Source: Fuerstiella sp. (GTDB lineage: Bacteria; Planctomycetota; Planctomycetia; Planctomycetales; Planctomycetaceae). Taken from it: 64,000 nt of DNA. Below the pieces are notes generated by a model, which saw nothing but the letters and a program-made list of their open reading frames with translations, was not told where the DNA came from and ran no database searches. Position numbers and translations under genes: made by a program. Below are positions 39,182 to 46,788 of this stretch, piece by piece. The first letter of the stretch is position 1, and each line of letters starts with the position of its first letter. The stretch lies in assembly GCA_022447225.1 (NCBI GenBank), contig JAKVAZ010000016.1:1-64000 (forward strand). Reading direction: 5' to 3'.

Positions 39182-42100
39182 TCACTGAAAATCTCTGGAA
39201 CGGTATTGTCCTCCTTTGACTGTCGCAGACAGGTCTTCCAGGTAATCAACAATCACATGGATCACTCCTGATTCCTTCTGCAGGATCCCTCGTGCAAGTA
39301 AGACTGAGGCGGTACGTGCGATTGTACGGAAGTGGTTCCACACGTTGGGATGGATCAGGAGATTGGTTGTGCCGGTTTCGTCTTCAAGCGTTACAAATGT
39401 AACACCGTGAGCTGAACCCGGGTGCTGTCGAACAAGGACGATTCCTGCTACGTGAACACGCCGGTGCGGTGGGCGGTGTTTCAGGGAAGAGGCGGGGATC
39501 ACACCGAACTGCCGGAGTTTTGGCCGGATGGATCCCAGCGGGTGACCTTTCAGAGACAGACCGGTCGTTCGATAGTCTGCAAGGATTTCAGCCATGTTTG
39601 ACATCCCAGGCAGACTGGCTGGTGTTTCCTCCTGCTGCTGATCATCAAACAGTGGCTGACCACGCAGATCCGGAAGAGATTTCCAGAGAGCCGGTCGACG
39701 GGACAGATTCAACGAGCGGAAGCTGTCGGCCTGAGAAAGCCGTGACAGGACAGACGAATCCAGTCTGGTTCGGGTACGAAAATCGTCGAATGATTCATAC
39801 GTCTGCAGATTCCGAATTCGAACGATAGATTCGGCAACCGATCTGCGCAGGCCTGCCACCATACAGAAGCCGAGACGAAGAGCTGGTTTTGAAGTTCGGG
39901 TTTGTTCGAGTGTACAGTTCCACTGGCTGTAGCAGACATCGACCGGACGCACTTCAACACCATGCCGCCGTGCGTCGAGTACGAGTTGCGACGGTGCATA
40001 GAATCCCATGGGCTGACTGTTGAGCAGAGCTGCCGTAAAGGCCGCCGGGTGATAACACCTGAGCCACGAGCTGGCGTATGCCAGCAGTGCGAAACTTGCG
40101 GAATGTGATTCCGGAAATCCATATTCCCCGAAGCCGCGAATCTGATCGAATACGCGTTCGGCGAATTCGAGATCGTACCCGTTGCCGATCATGCCGTTGA
40201 TAAATTTGCGATGAAACTGATCGATGATCCCCTGACGCCGCCAGGCCCCCATAGCACGACGCAGTTCGTCGGCTTCACCGGGAGTGAACCCGGCGGCCAC
40301 TACCGCCAGTTTCATGACTTGCTCCTGGAAAATCGGCACTCCCAGAGTGCGTTTCAGGACAGATCGGATCCGTTCATCCGGATAGGTTTCGGCTTCAAGT
40401 CCCTGTCTGCGTTTCAGATAGGGATGCACCATGTTTCCCTGAATCGGTCCCGGACGAACGATGGCGATCTCGATGACCAGATCGTAGAAGCAGCGTGGTC
40501 GCAATCGAGGCAGCATACTCATCTGTGCCCGACTTTCGATCTGGAACACTCCGATCGTATCTGCTCGCTGAATCATTCGATAAACAGCCGGGTCTTCTGC
40601 CGGAATTGTTGCCAGAGTCAGTGGTCTGCTGTCCGTGGTCTGTGCGGATTCAAATCCATGAATCAGATCGAAGCACTTACGAATGGCTGTCAGCATACCC
40701 AGTGAGAGACAATCAACTTTCAGAATCCCCAGCGCATCCAGATCCTGTTTATCCCACTGCACGACGGTTCGGTCCGGCATGGACGCATTTTCGATCGGAA
40801 CCAGTTCTGAGAGTCTGCCACGCGTAAAAATCAGACCGCCAACGTGTTGTGACAGATGTCGGGGAAAATGCTGAATGGCTTCGACGAGGTGTAAAAACTG
40901 ACGTGACCCACGAGTCCCGGGATCCAGGCCTGCTTCCCGAATCCATTCGGTTGATGATTCGGATGGAACCGTGCGATCGCACAGGCCGGACAGTCGGCTG
41001 ATCCTGTCGGTGGAGAACCCCAGAGCTTTCCCGACATCGCGTACTGCAGAACGTGCTCGGTAGGTGATCACCTCGGCTGTCATGGCCGCCCGGTCCCGAC
41101 CGTATTTGCCGTAAACGTACTGGATGACTTCTTCACGGCGTTCGTGTTCAAAATCGATGTCGATGTCGGGTGGTTCGTTGCGTTCCTGGCTGATGAATCG
41201 TTCGAACAGTGTTTCAAATCGATCCGGGTCAACGGCGGTCACACCCAGACAGTAGCAGACTGCGGAGTTCGCGGCCGAACCTCGTCCCTGGCAGAGGATT
41301 CCTCGGCCGCGGGCAAATCGGACGAGATCCCATACGGTGAGGAAATATGTTTCGTATTTCAGTTTCCGGATAAGTTGCAGTTCGTGGCTGATCTGATCAC
41401 CGACATGGCAGGGAATCCCGTTCGGATAGCGTTCACGGGCTCCGTTCCATGTCAGTTGCTCCAGATAGTCACTGGGGGCACGGCCGTCGGGGCAGAGTTC
41501 TTCAGGATATTCGTAACGCAGTTCATCCAGAGAGAACGAACAGCGATCAGCGATCTCACGTGTCCGCAGGACTGCTTCGGGCACGGTGGCAAACAACTGC
41601 TGCATTTCCGCAGCTGATTTGAGGTGACGTTCCGCATTGGGGAAACAGCGATTCCTCAGCTCTGCGACCGTACAGCCGTGTCGGATTGCTGTCAGCACAT
41701 CCTGCAACGGCTGCCGGTCGGGGATGTGATAGTACACATCGTTCGAAGCAACCAGAGGCAGGTGTGCCCTTTTTGCGAGTTGTCTTGTGCGATCAAGCTG
41801 TCGTCTGTCGTCAGGACCTCGATGCAGTTCCGCCAGTGCATAACAGCGGTCACCGAAGCACTCCCGGTATCGATCCGGCCAGACGCTGTGGCTGTCAGCA
41901 AGGCTGTGACCATCAGTAAGACAGTGACCATCAGCAAAACAGTGCCGGAGTGGAACGCAGGCCAGAAGTCCATCGGCATGCCGATGGACGTCATCAAAGG
42001 TGAGTTGGCAATCACCTTTGGCGGTCTGCCGGCGGCCATGTGTGATGAGGGTGGAAAGTTTCCTGTAGGCGTCGTGATTGCCGGCCAGCAGGACCACCGG

Positions 42101-42382
42101 AGGCCCCTCATTCGGGGTGATTTCGGCACCGATAATCAGTTTCAATCCTGCTTCTTTTGCGGCAACATGAGCGCGAACAACTCCGGCCACACTATTGCGA
42201 TCCGTAATTGCCAGAGCCGTCAGTCCGAGTTCCGCAGCTCGATTGACCAGTTCATCGGGATGCGAAGCTCCCTCCAGAAACGAAAAATTTGTGCGACAGT
42301 GCAGTTCTGCATAACAGCTTTTGTTTGGTTTGCCTTTTGAAGGCCGGGTGGGTTGGCGTCGGGGAGTTGGTTGATCGGGCAT
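39182..42382 (-). CDS. dnaE2: Error-prone DNA polymerase DnaE2 (ImuC)
   Basis: A 1066-residue C-family polymerase alpha subunit of the damage-inducible type. The PHP domain begins YAELHCRTNFSFLEGASHPD, and the polymerase core holds the catalytic Asp motif PDIDIDFEHERR near 400. VFQIESRAQMSMLPRLRPRC and FPESHSASFALLAYASSWL follow, with a helix-hairpin-helix and an OB fold near 960-1030 (VHVAGIVLVRQHPGS). The length and absence of the tau-binding end fit DnaE2, not replicative DnaE. With ImuA and ImuB, encoded about 0.7-3 kb away, it forms the SOS mutasome. A tandem 18-base repeat lies within the PHP-domain coding part. It is divergent from the YedK gene with a 64-base gap. Confidence 0.96.
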   Translation of the reverse strand: MPDQPTPRRQPTRPSKGKPNKSCYAELHCRTNFSFLEGASHPDELVNRAAELGLTALAITDRNSVAGVVRAHVAAKEAGLKLIIGAEITPNEGPPVVLLAGNHDAYRKLSTLITHGRRQTAKGDCQLTFDDVHRHADGLLACVPLRHCFADGHCLTDGHSLADSHSVWPDRYRECFGDRCYALAELHRGPDDRRQLDRTRQLAKRAHLPLVASNDVYYHIPDRQPLQDVLTAIRHGCTVAELRNRCFPNAERHLKSAAEMQQLFATVPEAVLRTREIADRCSFSLDELRYEYPEELCPDGRAPSDYLEQLTWNGARERYPNGIPCHVGDQISHELQLIRKLKYETYFLTVWDLVRFARGRGILCQGRGSAANSAVCYCLGVTAVDPDRFETLFERFISQERNEPPDIDIDFEHERREEVIQYVYGKYGRDRAAMTAEVITYRARSAVRDVGKALGFSTDRISRLSGLCDRTVPSESSTEWIREAGLDPGTRGSRQFLHLVEAIQHFPRHLSQHVGGLIFTRGRLSELVPIENASMPDRTVVQWDKQDLDALGILKVDCLSLGMLTAIRKCFDLIHGFESAQTTDSRPLTLATIPAEDPAVYRMIQRADTIGVFQIESRAQMSMLPRLRPRCFYDLVIEIAIVRPGPIQGNMVHPYLKRRQGLEAETYPDERIRSVLKRTLGVPIFQEQVMKLAVVAAGFTPGEADELRRAMGAWRRQGIIDQFHRKFINGMIGNGYDLEFAERVFDQIRGFGEYGFPESHSASFALLAYASSWLRCYHPAAFTAALLNSQPMGFYAPSQLVLDARRHGVEVRPVDVCYSQWNCTLEQTRTSKPALRLGFCMVAGLRRSVAESIVRIRNLQTYESFDDFRTRTRLDSSVLSRLSQADSFRSLNLSRRPALWKSLPDLRGQPLFDDQQQEETPASLPGMSNMAEILADYRTTGLSLKGHPLGSIRPKLRQFGVIPASSLKHRPPHRRVHVAGIVLVRQHPGSAHGVTFVTLEDETGTTNLLIHPNVWNHFRTIARTASVLLARGILQKESGVIHVIVDYLEDLSATVKGGQYRSRDFQ
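41890..41943 (-). repeat. Three 18-base tandem units inside dnaE2
   Basis: Units 41908-41925 and 41926-41943 differ at only two positions. 41890-41907 is a diverged third copy. They encode the His/Asp-rich run CFADGHCLTDGHSLADSHS in the PHP domain, which looks like an in-frame expansion in a surface loop. Confidence 0.75.
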
Positions 42383-42446
42383 GGTGACTTTCTGACAGAC
42401 CGGTCGACAGCTGGCACACGATGTGAACTCGAATTAACATGCAGAG

Positions 42447-43085
42447 ATGTGTCACCGGTTCAACGTCAAATCAAACCTGCAACAGATTGTTGAACCGTTC
42501 GGACCGGTTCAGATTCGTACGGATTCGGTTCCGGACGCCGATTGCTATCCCATGAGTCACGTGCTGATCCTGCGGCGTGATCCGGCGCTCGCTGAGTGGA
42601 TCATCGAGCGCCGCCAGTGGGGCTGGTTGCCGTCGCACTGGAGACCGTCCGCAAAGTATGCGACCAGGAAAAATTACCAGCGGCAACGCTTCAACGCTCG
42701 CAGTGAAACGGCTCACAGCACCTGGGGGTTTCGTCGGGCGTTTGCGTTTCAGCGATGTGTCGTGGTGGGAAGTTGTTTTTATGAGCCATATCGAGACGGA
42801 GGCGAAGCCCGTTACACGACCGACAGTGGCCTCATGTATTTTGCCGGTCTGTGGGACGACTGGAAGGACGCAGAAGAATCGGTGAGGTCGTGCACGATGC
42901 TGACCACGAATGCCAATCCACTCGTTGCGGCAAATCGAACAGGACGTTTGAGACAACCAGTGATCCTGACCGAACTCAATCAGGTGACTCGGTACTGCAA
43001 TCCCGGGATATCTGAGAGAGCACAGTTTGAAGATCTGCTGAAGCCGCTCTCTTGGGATGTCATGACAATTCATCGTCCGGAGTAA
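42447..43085 (+). CDS. SOS response-associated peptidase family protein (YedK/HMCES-like)
   Basis: A 212-residue SRAP-domain protein, a family that crosslinks to abasic sites in single-stranded DNA through Cys2. Cys2 is kept (MCHRFNV), as are the Asn of FNARSET (Asn83) and the Glu of GSCFYEPY (Glu113). The conserved His of the IHDRRP-type motif (His160 in E. coli YedK) corresponds to Arg167 in GRLRQPVIL, so crosslink chemistry may differ. The position between dnaE2 and imuB and the family role both point to DNA-damage tolerance. Its end is 11 bases from that of convergent imuB. Confidence 0.9.
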   Translation: MCHRFNVKSNLQQIVEPFGPVQIRTDSVPDADCYPMSHVLILRRDPALAEWIIERRQWGWLPSHWRPSAKYATRKNYQRQRFNARSETAHSTWGFRRAFAFQRCVVVGSCFYEPYRDGGEARYTTDSGLMYFAGLWDDWKDAEESVRSCTMLTTNANPLVAANRTGRLRQPVILTELNQVTRYCNPGISERAQFEDLLKPLSWDVMTIHRPE

Positions 43086-43096
43086 CTCCTGTGGTC

Positions 43097-44602
43097 TCAT
43101 TCGAACACTCCGTGCAGAAACCATGAAGTGTTGCCATCACGGAACAGCCAGAACCGGGAGCCCGTTCGTGTTTCCACGCGGTAATAGTCCCGGCGACAGA
43201 AACCATTCTCCTGCCACCAGCCGGTTTGAATCCGTTCGGGCTCTGTACAATGCGCGACCTCACAGGTCCTGTTCTCCCAGTAAAACCTTACGGGAGGTCC
43301 GTCAGGCATCATTGAGATCACCTCGATCGGCTGTGGTTCCGGAAACAGTTCCAGTGGGCGAGCCGCTCCGGGGACTGAACCGTCAACTGTTGCCGTTTGT
43401 TTTTCCGATACCGGAGCTGAACAGGACTCGAATCCGACAGCCGCCTCGGGCAGGGTTTCGGGCAAAAGTCGTGGTCGGACGACTGCTTCGGTTCCCAGTC
43501 GTGCGGTCAACCGGTCAATCAAACGTTCAATGTGATCGTCGCCATGTCTCAATTCCTGATCTGTGGTGTGTGTGAACAGCGTCCCCTGTCGAACATGCAG
43601 AGGCGCCGTCGCCACTGCCTGAAGACGAATCCCGACAAGCCATTCCGGAATGTGTTCTGTTTCAATCTTTAAGTTGACCAGGTTCATGAGATGAGGCAGT
43701 GCGTTGACCGGACGAGTCAGGACGATTTCCAGGACGACAGGGGCCGATGTTTCGCTTTGCAGTGTTATCGTCAGCCTGTGCAGACCTTCCGCTCGTCGAT
43801 GCAGGTTGTCCAAAATCTCCGAAATCAGGTCTGTACAGACAGTACGAATCGCTTCACGGTGGCAGATTGGTTCATCGGTGGACCACTCAGCGGAAACCGG
43901 TTTCGGATGGCGTACAGGCACAATTAACTCTTCATGCACACCAAGCATCTGATGAATTCGTGTGGTCAAAACCGGTCCAAAGCGTGATGGCAATTCCTCC
44001 CTGGGCAACAGAGTCAGTTGACCAATTGTGAACAGATCGAATTCCTTAAGCTGTCTGACCAGTTGATCGGGAATCCGCAGGGCTTCAACCGGCAGTGATC
44101 GCAGAGTACGACAGGTACCGGCTTGATGTCCATGACGTGCAATTCCCCAGGCAGCGCCGATCGTGTTTGCTGCGGCCACATGTGCAAAAAAACCTCGATT
44201 GATCAGATCGATGAGGATCTGCCGGGCAAGGTTGAATTCTCCTTTGAATAATGGAGCACATCCGCTGATGTCCAGAACCAGGCAATGCGAACCACACGAC
44301 CTCTCCAGTCCAACGTATGGACTGTAGAGATGACATGCCCGAGCCAGTATCTCCAGCTCCTGCAAATCGGTTTGTTCGTCATGCAGAATAAATTCGGCAG
44401 AATCCAGTAGTGACTGGGCTTCCGCCAGCGGCGTGCCAGGTCGAATGCCCTGACGGATCGCTTCACGGGACGCTGCCACAATTTGAGCGAGCTTACCCGA
44501 CTCCGCGTATATTCCGAACGCTGCTGATTTCAACTCCGGCCGTCGGCAACACACATGTTGAATGGGAAAATTTGGCAGCCACACGCACATGATTCGTTTC
44601 AT
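43097..44602 (-). CDS. imuB: ImuB, Y-family polymerase homologue of the mutasome
   Basis: A 501-residue protein with the fingers, palm, thumb and little-finger plan of Y-family polymerases, opening MKRIMCVWLPNFPIQHVCCR. The Asp that begins the palm in DinB is absent (CVWLPNFPIQH), as expected for ImuB, which is a non-catalytic hub joining the beta clamp, ImuA and DnaE2. VGLERSCGSHCLVLDISGCA near 97-116 and GAAWGIARHGHQAG are typical, and the tail FYWENRTCEVAHCTEPERIQ matches the C-terminal ImuB domain. It overlaps the end of imuA by 110 bases. Expression with lexA-imuA from the promoter near 45.95 kb is likely. Confidence 0.93.
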   Translation of the reverse strand: MKRIMCVWLPNFPIQHVCCRRPELKSAAFGIYAESGKLAQIVAASREAIRQGIRPGTPLAEAQSLLDSAEFILHDEQTDLQELEILARACHLYSPYVGLERSCGSHCLVLDISGCAPLFKGEFNLARQILIDLINRGFFAHVAAANTIGAAWGIARHGHQAGTCRTLRSLPVEALRIPDQLVRQLKEFDLFTIGQLTLLPREELPSRFGPVLTTRIHQMLGVHEELIVPVRHPKPVSAEWSTDEPICHREAIRTVCTDLISEILDNLHRRAEGLHRLTITLQSETSAPVVLEIVLTRPVNALPHLMNLVNLKIETEHIPEWLVGIRLQAVATAPLHVRQGTLFTHTTDQELRHGDDHIERLIDRLTARLGTEAVVRPRLLPETLPEAAVGFESCSAPVSEKQTATVDGSVPGAARPLELFPEPQPIEVISMMPDGPPVRFYWENRTCEVAHCTEPERIQTGWWQENGFCRRDYYRVETRTGSRFWLFRDGNTSWFLHGVFE

Positions 44603-45299
44603 CGTTCACTTCCAGATCGACGGATCTGTCGCTCGTGCCTCCTTTTGCGTAAAGACATCGCAGTTCGACAAACCGACAGAACGACTCTGATGGTGACGGC
44701 TGTGGCAAAGCCAGCAGACGCACGTCAGCCCACCCGGTTTGTTTCAGAGCGAACGACGGGCGAATCAGCATGCCGATTGCTGTACCGGATTCCGCTGCCA
44801 GCTGCAGACGACGAAACTGCTGATTTCGTAATCGATCAATGAAGCCCAGTACCACTCCCACACCGGAGCATCGCAGTGCCTGTTCAATCGTAAATAACTC
44901 GTCATGTTTGGATTTCGGCCGAACAAGAATGGATTCCGTAAGTGAAACTCCGGTTGACGGTAACGCTGCCGGATAGAATGTTCTCTGTGCATCCACAATC
45001 ACTAACGGTCCTGTTTTCTGTGCCTGGCCGGCAACAGACATTGCCAGCGTTGCGACACCGCTTCCCGGTTGTGCTCCAATCCATTCGCAAAGCGTTCCAC
45101 ATCGCAAACCGTGATCCGGAAGAATAGCGTCGAGCGCCGGAATCCCGGTGGAAACCACAGCCGCGTGATCGGAGCGTGCGCGAACGCCATGCTCAAAGCG
45201 ACGCAGTCCGGATCGCAGTTCCTGGATCACCTGCCACCTGGGGAGAGCTTTCCTGATGGAAATCTCTGGAATGGGCTCCTGAATTTTTGACGGGATCAT
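44493..45299 (-). CDS. imuA: ImuA, RecA-like mutasome protein
   Basis: A 268-residue RecA/SulA-fold protein. STGIPALDAILPDHGLRCGT followed by CEWIGAQPGSGVATLAMSVA near 71-90 is the RecA-type P-loop region, but the Lys of GxGKT is Val82, so ATP binding is probably lost or altered. The rest of the core fits (GPLVIVDAQRTFYPAALPST, then ALRCSGVGVVLGFIDRLRNQ). ImuA works with ImuB and DnaE2 in damage-induced mutagenesis. Its ATG overlaps the lexA stop by four bases, and its last 110 bases overlap imuB, a long overlap that suggests coupled translation. Confidence 0.9.
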   Translation of the reverse strand: MIPSKIQEPIPEISIRKALPRWQVIQELRSGLRRFEHGVRARSDHAAVVSTGIPALDAILPDHGLRCGTLCEWIGAQPGSGVATLAMSVAGQAQKTGPLVIVDAQRTFYPAALPSTGVSLTESILVRPKSKHDELFTIEQALRCSGVGVVLGFIDRLRNQQFRRLQLAAESGTAIGMLIRPSFALKQTGWADVRLLALPQPSPSESFCRFVELRCLYAKGGTSDRSVDLEVNDETNHVRVAAKFSHSTCVLPTAGVEISSVRNIRGVG

Positions 45300-45895
45300 C
45301 GAGTTCCCATCAATCGCAGAACCCCCACAACGATCCCTTCAATAGTCAGATCTTCACTGCGACAGAAGATCGACTCCATCGTTGAGTTCGCGGGTTCAAG
45401 CCGAATGCGGCGTCGCTTTGGTTCCCGATAGAACCGTTTCAGTGTTGCTTCCTCTCCGATTCTGGCGACAACCAGATCTCCATCCACACATGTTTGCTGT
45501 TTCCTCACAATCACGTGATCACCGTCAGCGATATGCTCCTCAATCATCGATTCACCACGTACCCGCAGCGCAAAGTGGCCGTCTCTGGACAGCCCTCCCA
45601 GATCAAGTCGCTCATCCTGCTGTTCGATTGCCTCAATGGGAGAACCGGCAGCAACTGTCCCAGCCAGTGCCAGACCCTCCGGTTCTGTCAACTGAAGTCC
45701 TCGATGGCCATAGCCACGGGTCAGATATCCTGTTTCGACCAGGTTATTGACATGGAACAAAGCTGTATGAGGAGATTTGTAATCGAATTCCGTCTGGATC
45801 TCGCGCATTGACGGAGAACGTCCTGTACAGCGGATTTCCTGGCAAATGAAGTCCAGAATGCGTTGCTGCGTTTTTGTAAGAGACTGCTGCTCCAT
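45296..45895 (-). CDS. lexA: LexA repressor
   Basis: A 199-residue SOS repressor of normal length. The winged helix N-terminus is LTKTQQRILDFICQEIRCTG and SMREIQTEF. The self-cleavage site is VAAGSP (Ala83-Gly84), with catalytic Ser116 in RVRGESMIEE and Lys153 in ATLKRFY, all intact. RecA filaments should trigger cleavage and release the operon. It heads lexA-imuA-imuB, so it controls its own level and the mutasome. The recognition helix (SMREIQTEFDYKSPHTALFH) differs from that of E. coli, consistent with a different operator. The upstream region has the promoter and palindrome at 45944-45972. Confidence 0.96.
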   Translation of the reverse strand: MEQQSLTKTQQRILDFICQEIRCTGRSPSMREIQTEFDYKSPHTALFHVNNLVETGYLTRGYGHRGLQLTEPEGLALAGTVAAGSPIEAIEQQDERLDLGGLSRDGHFALRVRGESMIEEHIADGDHVIVRKQQTCVDGDLVVARIGEEATLKRFYREPKRRRIRLEPANSTMESIFCRSEDLTIEGIVVGVLRLMGTR

Positions 45896-45943
45896 AGTTG
45901 TGAGTTGATGTGTTGCTGTTGAATGTTTGTTGATTTGTTAAAA

Positions 45944-45961
45944 ATAATACATTTGTATTAT
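45944..45961. promoter_or_regulatory. Perfect 18-base palindrome, probable LexA operator
   Basis: ATAATACA-TT-TGTATTAT: eight-base arms, two-base centre, no mismatch. It covers the -10 and half the spacer of the lexA promoter, the classic place for a self-repressor. It differs from the CTGT-N8-ACAG and GAAC-N4-GTTC LexA boxes. Confidence 0.7.
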
Positions 45962-45972
45962 CGTGGTGTCAA
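45944..45972 (-). promoter_or_regulatory. Sigma-70 promoter of lexA-imuA-imuB
   Basis: On the minus strand TTGACA (45972-45967), a 17-base spacer and TATTAT (45949-45944) give six of six and five of six consensus matches. The transcript would start near 45937, leaving a leader of about 40 bases before the lexA ATG at 45895. Confidence 0.8.
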
Positions 45973-46788
45973 TGTGAAAATTGACGCTTACGGAAACGAC
46001 GGACATTCGACATCAAATGCGGTCGGCCTGACGGATTGCTTAGCGTCGGACCGGTCATCAGGGGCTTTTGCCGGACTCTCTTTACCAATGGCGACTTGAA
46101 AGGGGAATGAGTGATCGGAACAGCGAACCACCAAGGAAACGGGAGGGCAGAACCAGGAAACTCAATGGATGGACACCGTTTCCTGTGCCGTGAAGGCAGT
46201 CAGCGGTTGTCGTGCTTATCTTTCGTCAGTCGTTTGCTGCGCTGTATATTGTGACAAATGGTTTAGAGCCTGTTTGTCACTGCGCAATGCCACGAGATCC
46301 GCAAATTCAGTGAACGTAAGCGGCGACAAGGTTTCACCCCGTATCAGACCGGGTTTGCCGGGGCAATTTTTCTTCGATGTCGTCCAGCTAGATGTCGGTA
46401 GTTGTGGTATATGGAATCTTGCAGGACAAATTGCAGTAGTTCTGCCTCAATTTTCAGGCAGCTGTCCAAAGTGCAGTCTGCGACCCGGGAACAGCGTCGG
46501 AATTTCGCAGGGAATTGTTCAGCAGCATAGTGGATTTTTGCATCGGAGGCTGTTGGAAATCCGTTCACCTGATGTTTCGCTTTCAGTCGCCTGGCCGGCT
46601 AGATTGTTGCCACTCGGAGTTTCGTCAGGTTACTGCCACGGAATCGTTTCGGTAACATCAGTATGCGGCGTTGCCGGTTTTACGTTGCCTGTTGCTGCTC
46701 GTTGGTCGCGTCCAGATTGAACGAGGCCACAATTCGGCATTTCCACACAGGATTCCGCAGACGGCTTTAACTAAGCAAGGAACATGTG

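Follow-up and report, generated by a model that had tools for sequence, protein, structure and literature searches.

The window analysed here, a stretch of 64,000 nucleotides from Fuerstiella sp., contains a mutagenesis cassette headed by a lexA gene, which we call lexA2, with a promoter and an inverted repeat upstream (Table 1). The product of lexA2 scored 169.6 bits against TIGR00498, for which the cut-off is 110.95, and matched both the winged helix-turn-helix domain (PF01726) and the S24 peptidase domain (PF00717). The best fold matches of its predicted structure are LexA proteins, LexA-DNA complexes among them, and in this model the predicted helix 42-54 is at the position of the recognition helix, whose DNA contacts in E. 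coli LexA are residues 39, 41, 42, 44 and 45 according to PMC3091678. As lexA2 shares four bases with the imuA-like gene, the frame of which in turn runs into that of imuB, lexA-imuA-imuB looks like one operon. The SRAP gene lies on the opposite strand, and transcription of dnaE2 may either pass through this gene or start at a promoter of its own.

Table 1. Genes and regulatory features of the lexA2 locus, in window positions
Feature	Position	Strand	Basis
dnaE2, error-prone DNA polymerase	39182..42382	-	NF004225, 1433.2 bits (cut-off 939)
SRAP (SOS response associated peptidase) gene, between imuB and dnaE2	42447..43085	+	PF02586, 110.2 bits
imuB-like gene, Y-family polymerase relative	43097..44602	-	PF00817, 28.6 bits (cut-off 23.2); gene context
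imuA-like gene, overlapping lexA2	44493..45299	-	NF033429 ImuA, 99.3 bits (under the cut-off of 150); gene context
lexA2, LexA repressor; helix SPHTALFHVNNL, Ala83-Gly84, Ser116, Lys153	45296..45895	-	TIGR00498, PF01726, PF00717; ATG at 45895
Candidate LexA2 operator, ATAATACA-TT-TGTATTAT, core TAAT-N8-ATTA	45944..45961	.	conserved upstream of LexA2 orthologues
-10 hexamer TATTAT, within the operator	45944..45949	-	promoter scan
-35 hexamer TTGACA	45967..45972	-	promoter scan; TTGACA with a spacer of 17 also in G001

The repeat consists of two arms, ATAATACA (45944-45951) and TGTATTAT (45954-45961), which are 100% complementary and separated by two bases. The initial annotation had described a perfect palindrome about 50 bases before lexA; its two 8-base arms do pair fully, but the central TT is asymmetric, so that this is a perfect 8+8 repeat and not a perfect palindrome of 18 bases, and 48 bases were counted between the box and the ATG, in agreement with the place given. 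The genome, of 5.43 Mb, has a single copy of ATAATACA-N2-TGTATTAT, and the sole copy of TAAT-N8-ATTA in the window is that at 45945. Palindromes with arms of 8 and spacers of 0-10 gave 29 hits at 17 places in the window when nested ones are counted, and 10 shuffles gave 9-25; of 2000 shuffles of the 100 bases before lexA, 23 contained one of this kind. Such repeats are thus common in the window and this one is unremarkable in itself, and we dropped its rarity as evidence. The weight of the case for an operator is in the conservation of the box in relatives, not in the palindrome.

To place lexA2 among its homologues, we assembled a set of LexA sequences from 253 tblastn hits, of which 31 failed a motif filter; removal of duplicates and of frames shorter than 120 aa left 179. 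We classified 133 of these and left out 46 (loci L060-L135, mostly from other phyla). A contig scan gave at least 80 loci, L056 and L057 being LexA2, and L056 stands for G449 in the counts. A profile search found LexA2 in 12 of 170 genomes of the family (G000, G001, G002, G008, G012, G340, G448-G452 and G475). Of the 392 genomes of a draw from the phylum, three had it with an E of 1e-60 or better, all three from the family of the window. Two distant LexA proteins on viral contigs, with 36 and 37% identity, were considered and are not LexA2. In a tree of 83 of the 179 sequences (12 LexA2, 9 class ii, 2 other, 25 of 62 intact ordinary LexA or LexA1, 15 of 48 degenerate LexA1 and 20 of the 46 unclassified), LexA2 forms a single clade with support of 99/98, the sister of which is the cassette LexA of G473 (100/99). 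G000 and G001 stand apart in this tree from G002, which is of the same genus, and consequently the cassette was likely moved by transfer or differentially lost.

All 12 LexA2 proteins keep the Ala-Gly scissile bond and the Ser/Lys dyad, the E. coli equivalents of which are Ala84-Gly85, Ser119 and Lys156 (PMC3091678). The recognition helix of the protein in the window, SPHTALFHVNNL, is unlike the SPNGVMCHLKAL of ordinary planctomycete LexA, which is found exactly in 50 of the 62 intact sequences. The order lexA2-imuA-imuB-dnaE2 is largely kept as well: imuA comes next in 12 of 12 cassettes, imuB follows in 11 and dnaE2 in 10. In G475 the contig ends, and in G449 no dnaE2 was found in the stretch examined, which reaches about 7.8 kb beyond imuB. 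In five of the 12 cassettes a SRAP gene of opposite orientation separates imuB from dnaE2.

Upstream of these genes, which were picked by their protein and not by the box, TAAT-N8-ATTA was found in 11 of 12 cases and ranked first among all 4-base inverted repeats with spacers of 0-12; the best that any pattern reached in shuffled upstream sets was 3, with 40 sets and again with 60. The twelfth genome, G448, has the one-base variant TAGT-N8-ATTA, so that the box or a one-base variant of its core is present upstream of every LexA2 orthologue. Identity across the 12 genomes is 0.75 in the box and 0.35 and 0.28 in its flanks, and of the 24 half-sites, 24, 23, 24 and 24 have the A, T, T and A of positions 5-8. 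Being relatives, and close ones in cases such as G451/G452 and G000/G001, the 12 sequences do not amount to 12 independent observations. The same core was absent upstream of 62 intact LexA1, 48 degenerate LexA1, 9 class-ii and 2 other LexA genes. This conservation together with LexA2 bears out the initial annotation in taking the box as a candidate operator of the adjacent, autoregulated lexA gene, and we put at about 0.87 the probability that the palindrome is the autoregulatory operator of the LexA2 heading lexA2-imuA-imuB(-dnaE2), with binding predicted from sequence.

The position of the box in the window fits this reading. A scan of 45850-46200 gave a promoter-like TTGACA-N17-TATTAT (45972-45944, minus strand) that reads towards lexA with 11 of 12 consensus bases, together with one weaker site on the plus strand; shuffles of the stretch average 0.4 sites. 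The box spans the whole -10 hexamer and 12 of the 17 spacer bases, as had been claimed when the palindrome was placed over the -10 and inner spacer of a near-consensus promoter. A good -35 at the right distance from the box is present in G000 and G001 and a weaker one (4/6) in G340 and G475; none was seen at that distance in the other 8 of the 12 LexA2 genomes. In G012 about 200 bases separate the box from the conserved start of the LexA2 protein. With a clear -35 in G000 and G001 only and the box of G012 so distant, the promoter overlap may not be general. Upstream of L005 in G012 (G012:C104:3928-3962), at about 200 bases from lexA2, there are two adjacent LexA2-like boxes that overlap each other.

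If the palindrome is the LexA2 operator, a LexA2 dimer would bind TAAT-N8-ATTA with one recognition helix on each half-site, 5'-TGTATTAY-3', and in this genome, since the site covers the -10 and spacer, the bound protein would block RNA polymerase. Upon DNA damage, the RecA filament would trigger self-cleavage of LexA2 at Ala83-Gly84 through Ser116/Lys153, and the mutagenesis operon would be derepressed. Binding, repression and RecA-triggered induction are all predictions here. Half-site position 3 shows some association with LexA2 residue 46, being G in 12/12 of the Leu/Gln forms and 3/12 of the Arg forms (hand count); as the Arg forms fall within one clade of the tree, a coupling between the two is suggestive only.

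The box might instead be bound by another repressor, such as the degenerate ordinary-type LexA or an unlinked regulator, with LexA2 acting elsewhere. Binding by LexA2 is a prediction, and every one of the 12 LexA2 genomes also has an ordinary-type LexA with an intact DNA-binding domain and a decayed self-cleavage domain. However, the core precedes LexA2 genes and not one of the LexA1 genes examined, 48 degenerate and 62 intact. Some genomes with no LexA2 match (G430-G436 and G505-G513) have a degenerate LexA1 too, so that the link is one-way, and no other strong sites at which LexA2 could be acting were found genome-wide. We consider this alternative improbable.

The decay of the ordinary LexA deserves description of its own. 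In the 12 copies that accompany LexA2 the Lys is lost in 11, the Ser in 4 and the scissile Ala-Gly is changed in all; the LexA1 of G012 keeps the aligned Ser and Lys and has Ala-Thr in place of Ala-Gly. We called a copy degenerate upon any change in Ala-Gly, Ser or Lys, and of the 48 so classed 45 have lost Ser or Lys and three are changed in the scissile pair only. Likeness within the DNA-binding domain is 0.83 among degenerate and 0.76 among intact copies, the intact set spanning more families, whereas in the peptidase domain it is 0.39 against 0.61; this argues that DNA binding has been conserved and cleavage has not. The sample is not random, many degenerate copies being among the matches listed for a degenerate query, and the intact set including other families of the class. 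Degenerate copies, which all 12 LexA2 genomes and further genomes of the family have, are at L032:3952-4617 (G000:C11:141351-142016), L034, L035, L037, L038, L039, L208-L232, L236-L243, L245 and L246. By hand count, a -10-like signature (TATATTA and similar) is present upstream of 37 of 62 intact lexA1 genes and 2 of 48 degenerate ones, so that the usual lexA1 promoter seems to have been lost from the latter. As to a box for LexA1 itself, TGAC-N5-GTCA looks like an artefact of the included coding start, and after trimming of that start no inverted repeat rose above the shuffles (GAAC-N4-GTTC at 5 of 62, shuffled maximum 6); the 8-mer GTATATTA is upstream of 20 of the 62 intact genes, with a shuffled maximum of 6.

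An intact class-ii LexA is also present in G008, G448, G449, G451 and G452, and G450 has a match of like score. In G000, G001, G002, G012, G340 and G475, no match other than LexA2 reached E 1e-45. Since the ordinary LexA is decayed in all 12 genomes, LexA2 may, judging by these searches, be the sole damage-responsive LexA in some of them.

With LexA2 so placed in six genomes, it could have taken over the regulon there, and the palindrome could then serve a full SOS regulon as the lineage's general LexA box, much as the initial annotation had supposed in calling it the LexA box of this lineage. Several results speak against this. LexA2 is confined to the few family and phylum genomes counted above, and the core stands before none of the intact LexA1 genes. 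No LexA2 box was found upstream of recA in any of the 11 genomes compared (G448, where recA is a fragment at a contig end, was left out), the best matches having 4-7 mismatches of 18, and recA was ruled out as a LexA2 target. In G002, recA (L187, G002:C149:27056-28000) shares a contig with the LexA2 cassette, a few kb apart. Nor is there a separate box before dnaE2 in the window, TAAT-N8-ATTA being absent from the dnaE2/SRAP intergenic stretch (42383-42446); these were two of the genes at which the initial annotation had suggested looking for the palindrome. Genome-wide, additional sites are at or near the control level. The pattern RTAATAMANNTKTATTAY, with up to 2 mismatches, gave 28 sites in the 12 genomes, of which 12 are at lexA2; the 16 others compare with 20 for the reversed-pattern control. 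With 1 mismatch, TAATNCANNTGNATTA gave 31, of which 7 are at lexA2, and here the 24 others compare with 18. Both patterns were derived from lexA2 sites, so matches there are expected and the informative part is that there is no clear excess elsewhere; they were used instead of the degenerate pattern YTAATNCANNTGNATTAR, which does not reach the window's own site. A general box is thus very unlikely, and by distribution and sequence the candidate operator is that of the cassette LexA, not the general LexA box of the lineage. With no clear excess of other sites and no box at recA, LexA2 probably represses only its own mutagenesis operon, from a sole or nearly sole site in the genome. This confinement fits the statement in PMC3323433 that the imuA-imuB-dnaE2 cassette is the sole LexA-regulated unit in several organisms.

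The box might also be an A+T-rich palindrome that arose by chance, or might act in RNA as a hairpin or terminator. In favour of this is how common palindromes of such size are in the window. We rejected it as having next to no likelihood, since the box is conserved well above its flanks in 12 genomes, G451 and G452 retain the outer TAAT/ATTA with unpaired inner bases, as suits a dimer site better than a stem, no terminator-like site was found in the scan of the promoter region (45850-46200), and a box at the -10 in this genome would for the most part be untranscribed.

Returning to the LexA2 operator, the sequences adjoining related cassettes suggest where it may come from. Read outward from the centre, the LexA2 half-site is TGTATTAY. 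The cassette LexA of the sister G473 (L145, G473:C122) adjoins TTAGTACAATTGTTCTAA (palindrome GAATTAGTACAATTGTTCTAATTC), with half-sites TGTWCTAA, which differ from those of LexA2 mainly by C for T at position 6. The class-ii LexA half-sites are TGTACTAT/TGTACTTA in G451 and TGTTCTAC/TGTACTTA in G452. Other cassette-linked LexA genes adjoin different palindromes: L146 (G445:C110) has CATAC-N4-GTATG twice, plus a further repeat that departs from it by one change, and L147 (G011:C13) has GAAAACAAATGTTTTC and TGTATACATTTGTTTACA. This variety suggests that operators have diversified along with the recognition helix. The half-sites mostly share TGT and differ outside it, so that the LexA2 box reads as GTAC-N4-GTWC with C to T at position 6, and from these sequences, read by eye, we infer that it derives from the GTAC-N4-GTWC type by one base changed per half-site. 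The half-sites of G473 and LexA2 would then illustrate a plausible stepwise path between operators.

A wider reading is that the SOS regulator is being replaced: LexA1 would be a damage-blind repressor, and LexA2, with its operator shifted by one base per half-site, would be the sole damage-responsive LexA in some species and run just the mutasome. We hold this tentatively, at somewhat less than even odds; if true, the LexA-inducible response has shrunk to pure mutagenesis.

A second LexA of this kind is known from Pseudomonas putida. The planctomycete operator differs from the box of that LexA2, GTAC-N4-GTGC, and the ordinary LexA here has a decayed peptidase domain; a primary LexA with an intact self-cleavage domain is missing in the sense that the recovered copy with the ordinary helix is degenerate in all 12 LexA2 genomes. 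The likeness is in the arrangement: in P. putida, LexA2 controls its own imu operon, lexA2-imuA-imuB-imuC (dnaE2), and in both cases a second LexA comes first in a mutagenesis operon under its control, with two differing LexA regulons per cell, here as predicted from sequence (PMC3901139). Abella et al. (2007) reportedly deals with the P. putida system as well.

Among known boxes, those of Gram-positive bacteria (GAAC-N4-GTTC) and cyanobacteria (AGTACWNWTGTACT) resemble the LexA2 box in their inner ACA..TGT and dyad register, and cyanobacterial sites such as GGTACAAATGTATT come near its inner part (PMC3323433, PMC3091678). Unlike GWAC/GTWC, the outer G:C is A:T in LexA2 boxes, except in one half of the G448 site, and TAAT/ATTA is nearly invariant; by eye, none of the 12 boxes matches GWAC-N4-GTWC completely, G448 being one base short. 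The E. coli SOS box, CTGT-N8-ACAG, likewise has four-base half-site cores 8 bases apart and, as the box does in the window, overlaps the promoter (PMC3323433), whereas LexA2 boxes have TAAT/ATTA in place of CTGT/ACAG. The box had been called unlike the E. coli, Gram-positive and alphaproteobacterial types; it does match none of the three consensus sequences, but it is less foreign than this implied, being near the Gram-positive/cyanobacterial-like GTAC-N4-GTWC. That planctomycete LexA does not recognise the E. coli motif is the one printed statement found, in PMC3108266.

In open-licence PMC literature on planctomycete and Verrucomicrobia LexA, LexA motifs, lexA2/imu, two-LexA regulation and degenerate LexA, the portions consulted held no prior description of this operator. 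Control of an imu operon by the second LexA at its head is already known, and this operator looks to be a new variety of LexA site. The model of LexA replacement in PMC8565304 (Fig. 10), a paper that counts 17 LexA motifs, runs through duplication, divergence of the motif and loss of the primary LexA. The present case resembles it in having a diverged LexA with a new motif beside an ordinary-type LexA, and differs in that the ordinary LexA is not deleted, its peptidase having decayed and its DNA-binding domain been kept, and in that LexA2 shows no visible takeover of recA. The box adds a candidate class of LexA operator for Planctomycetes and, the ordinary LexA being decayed, provides a natural test case for SOS regulator change in a bacterium.
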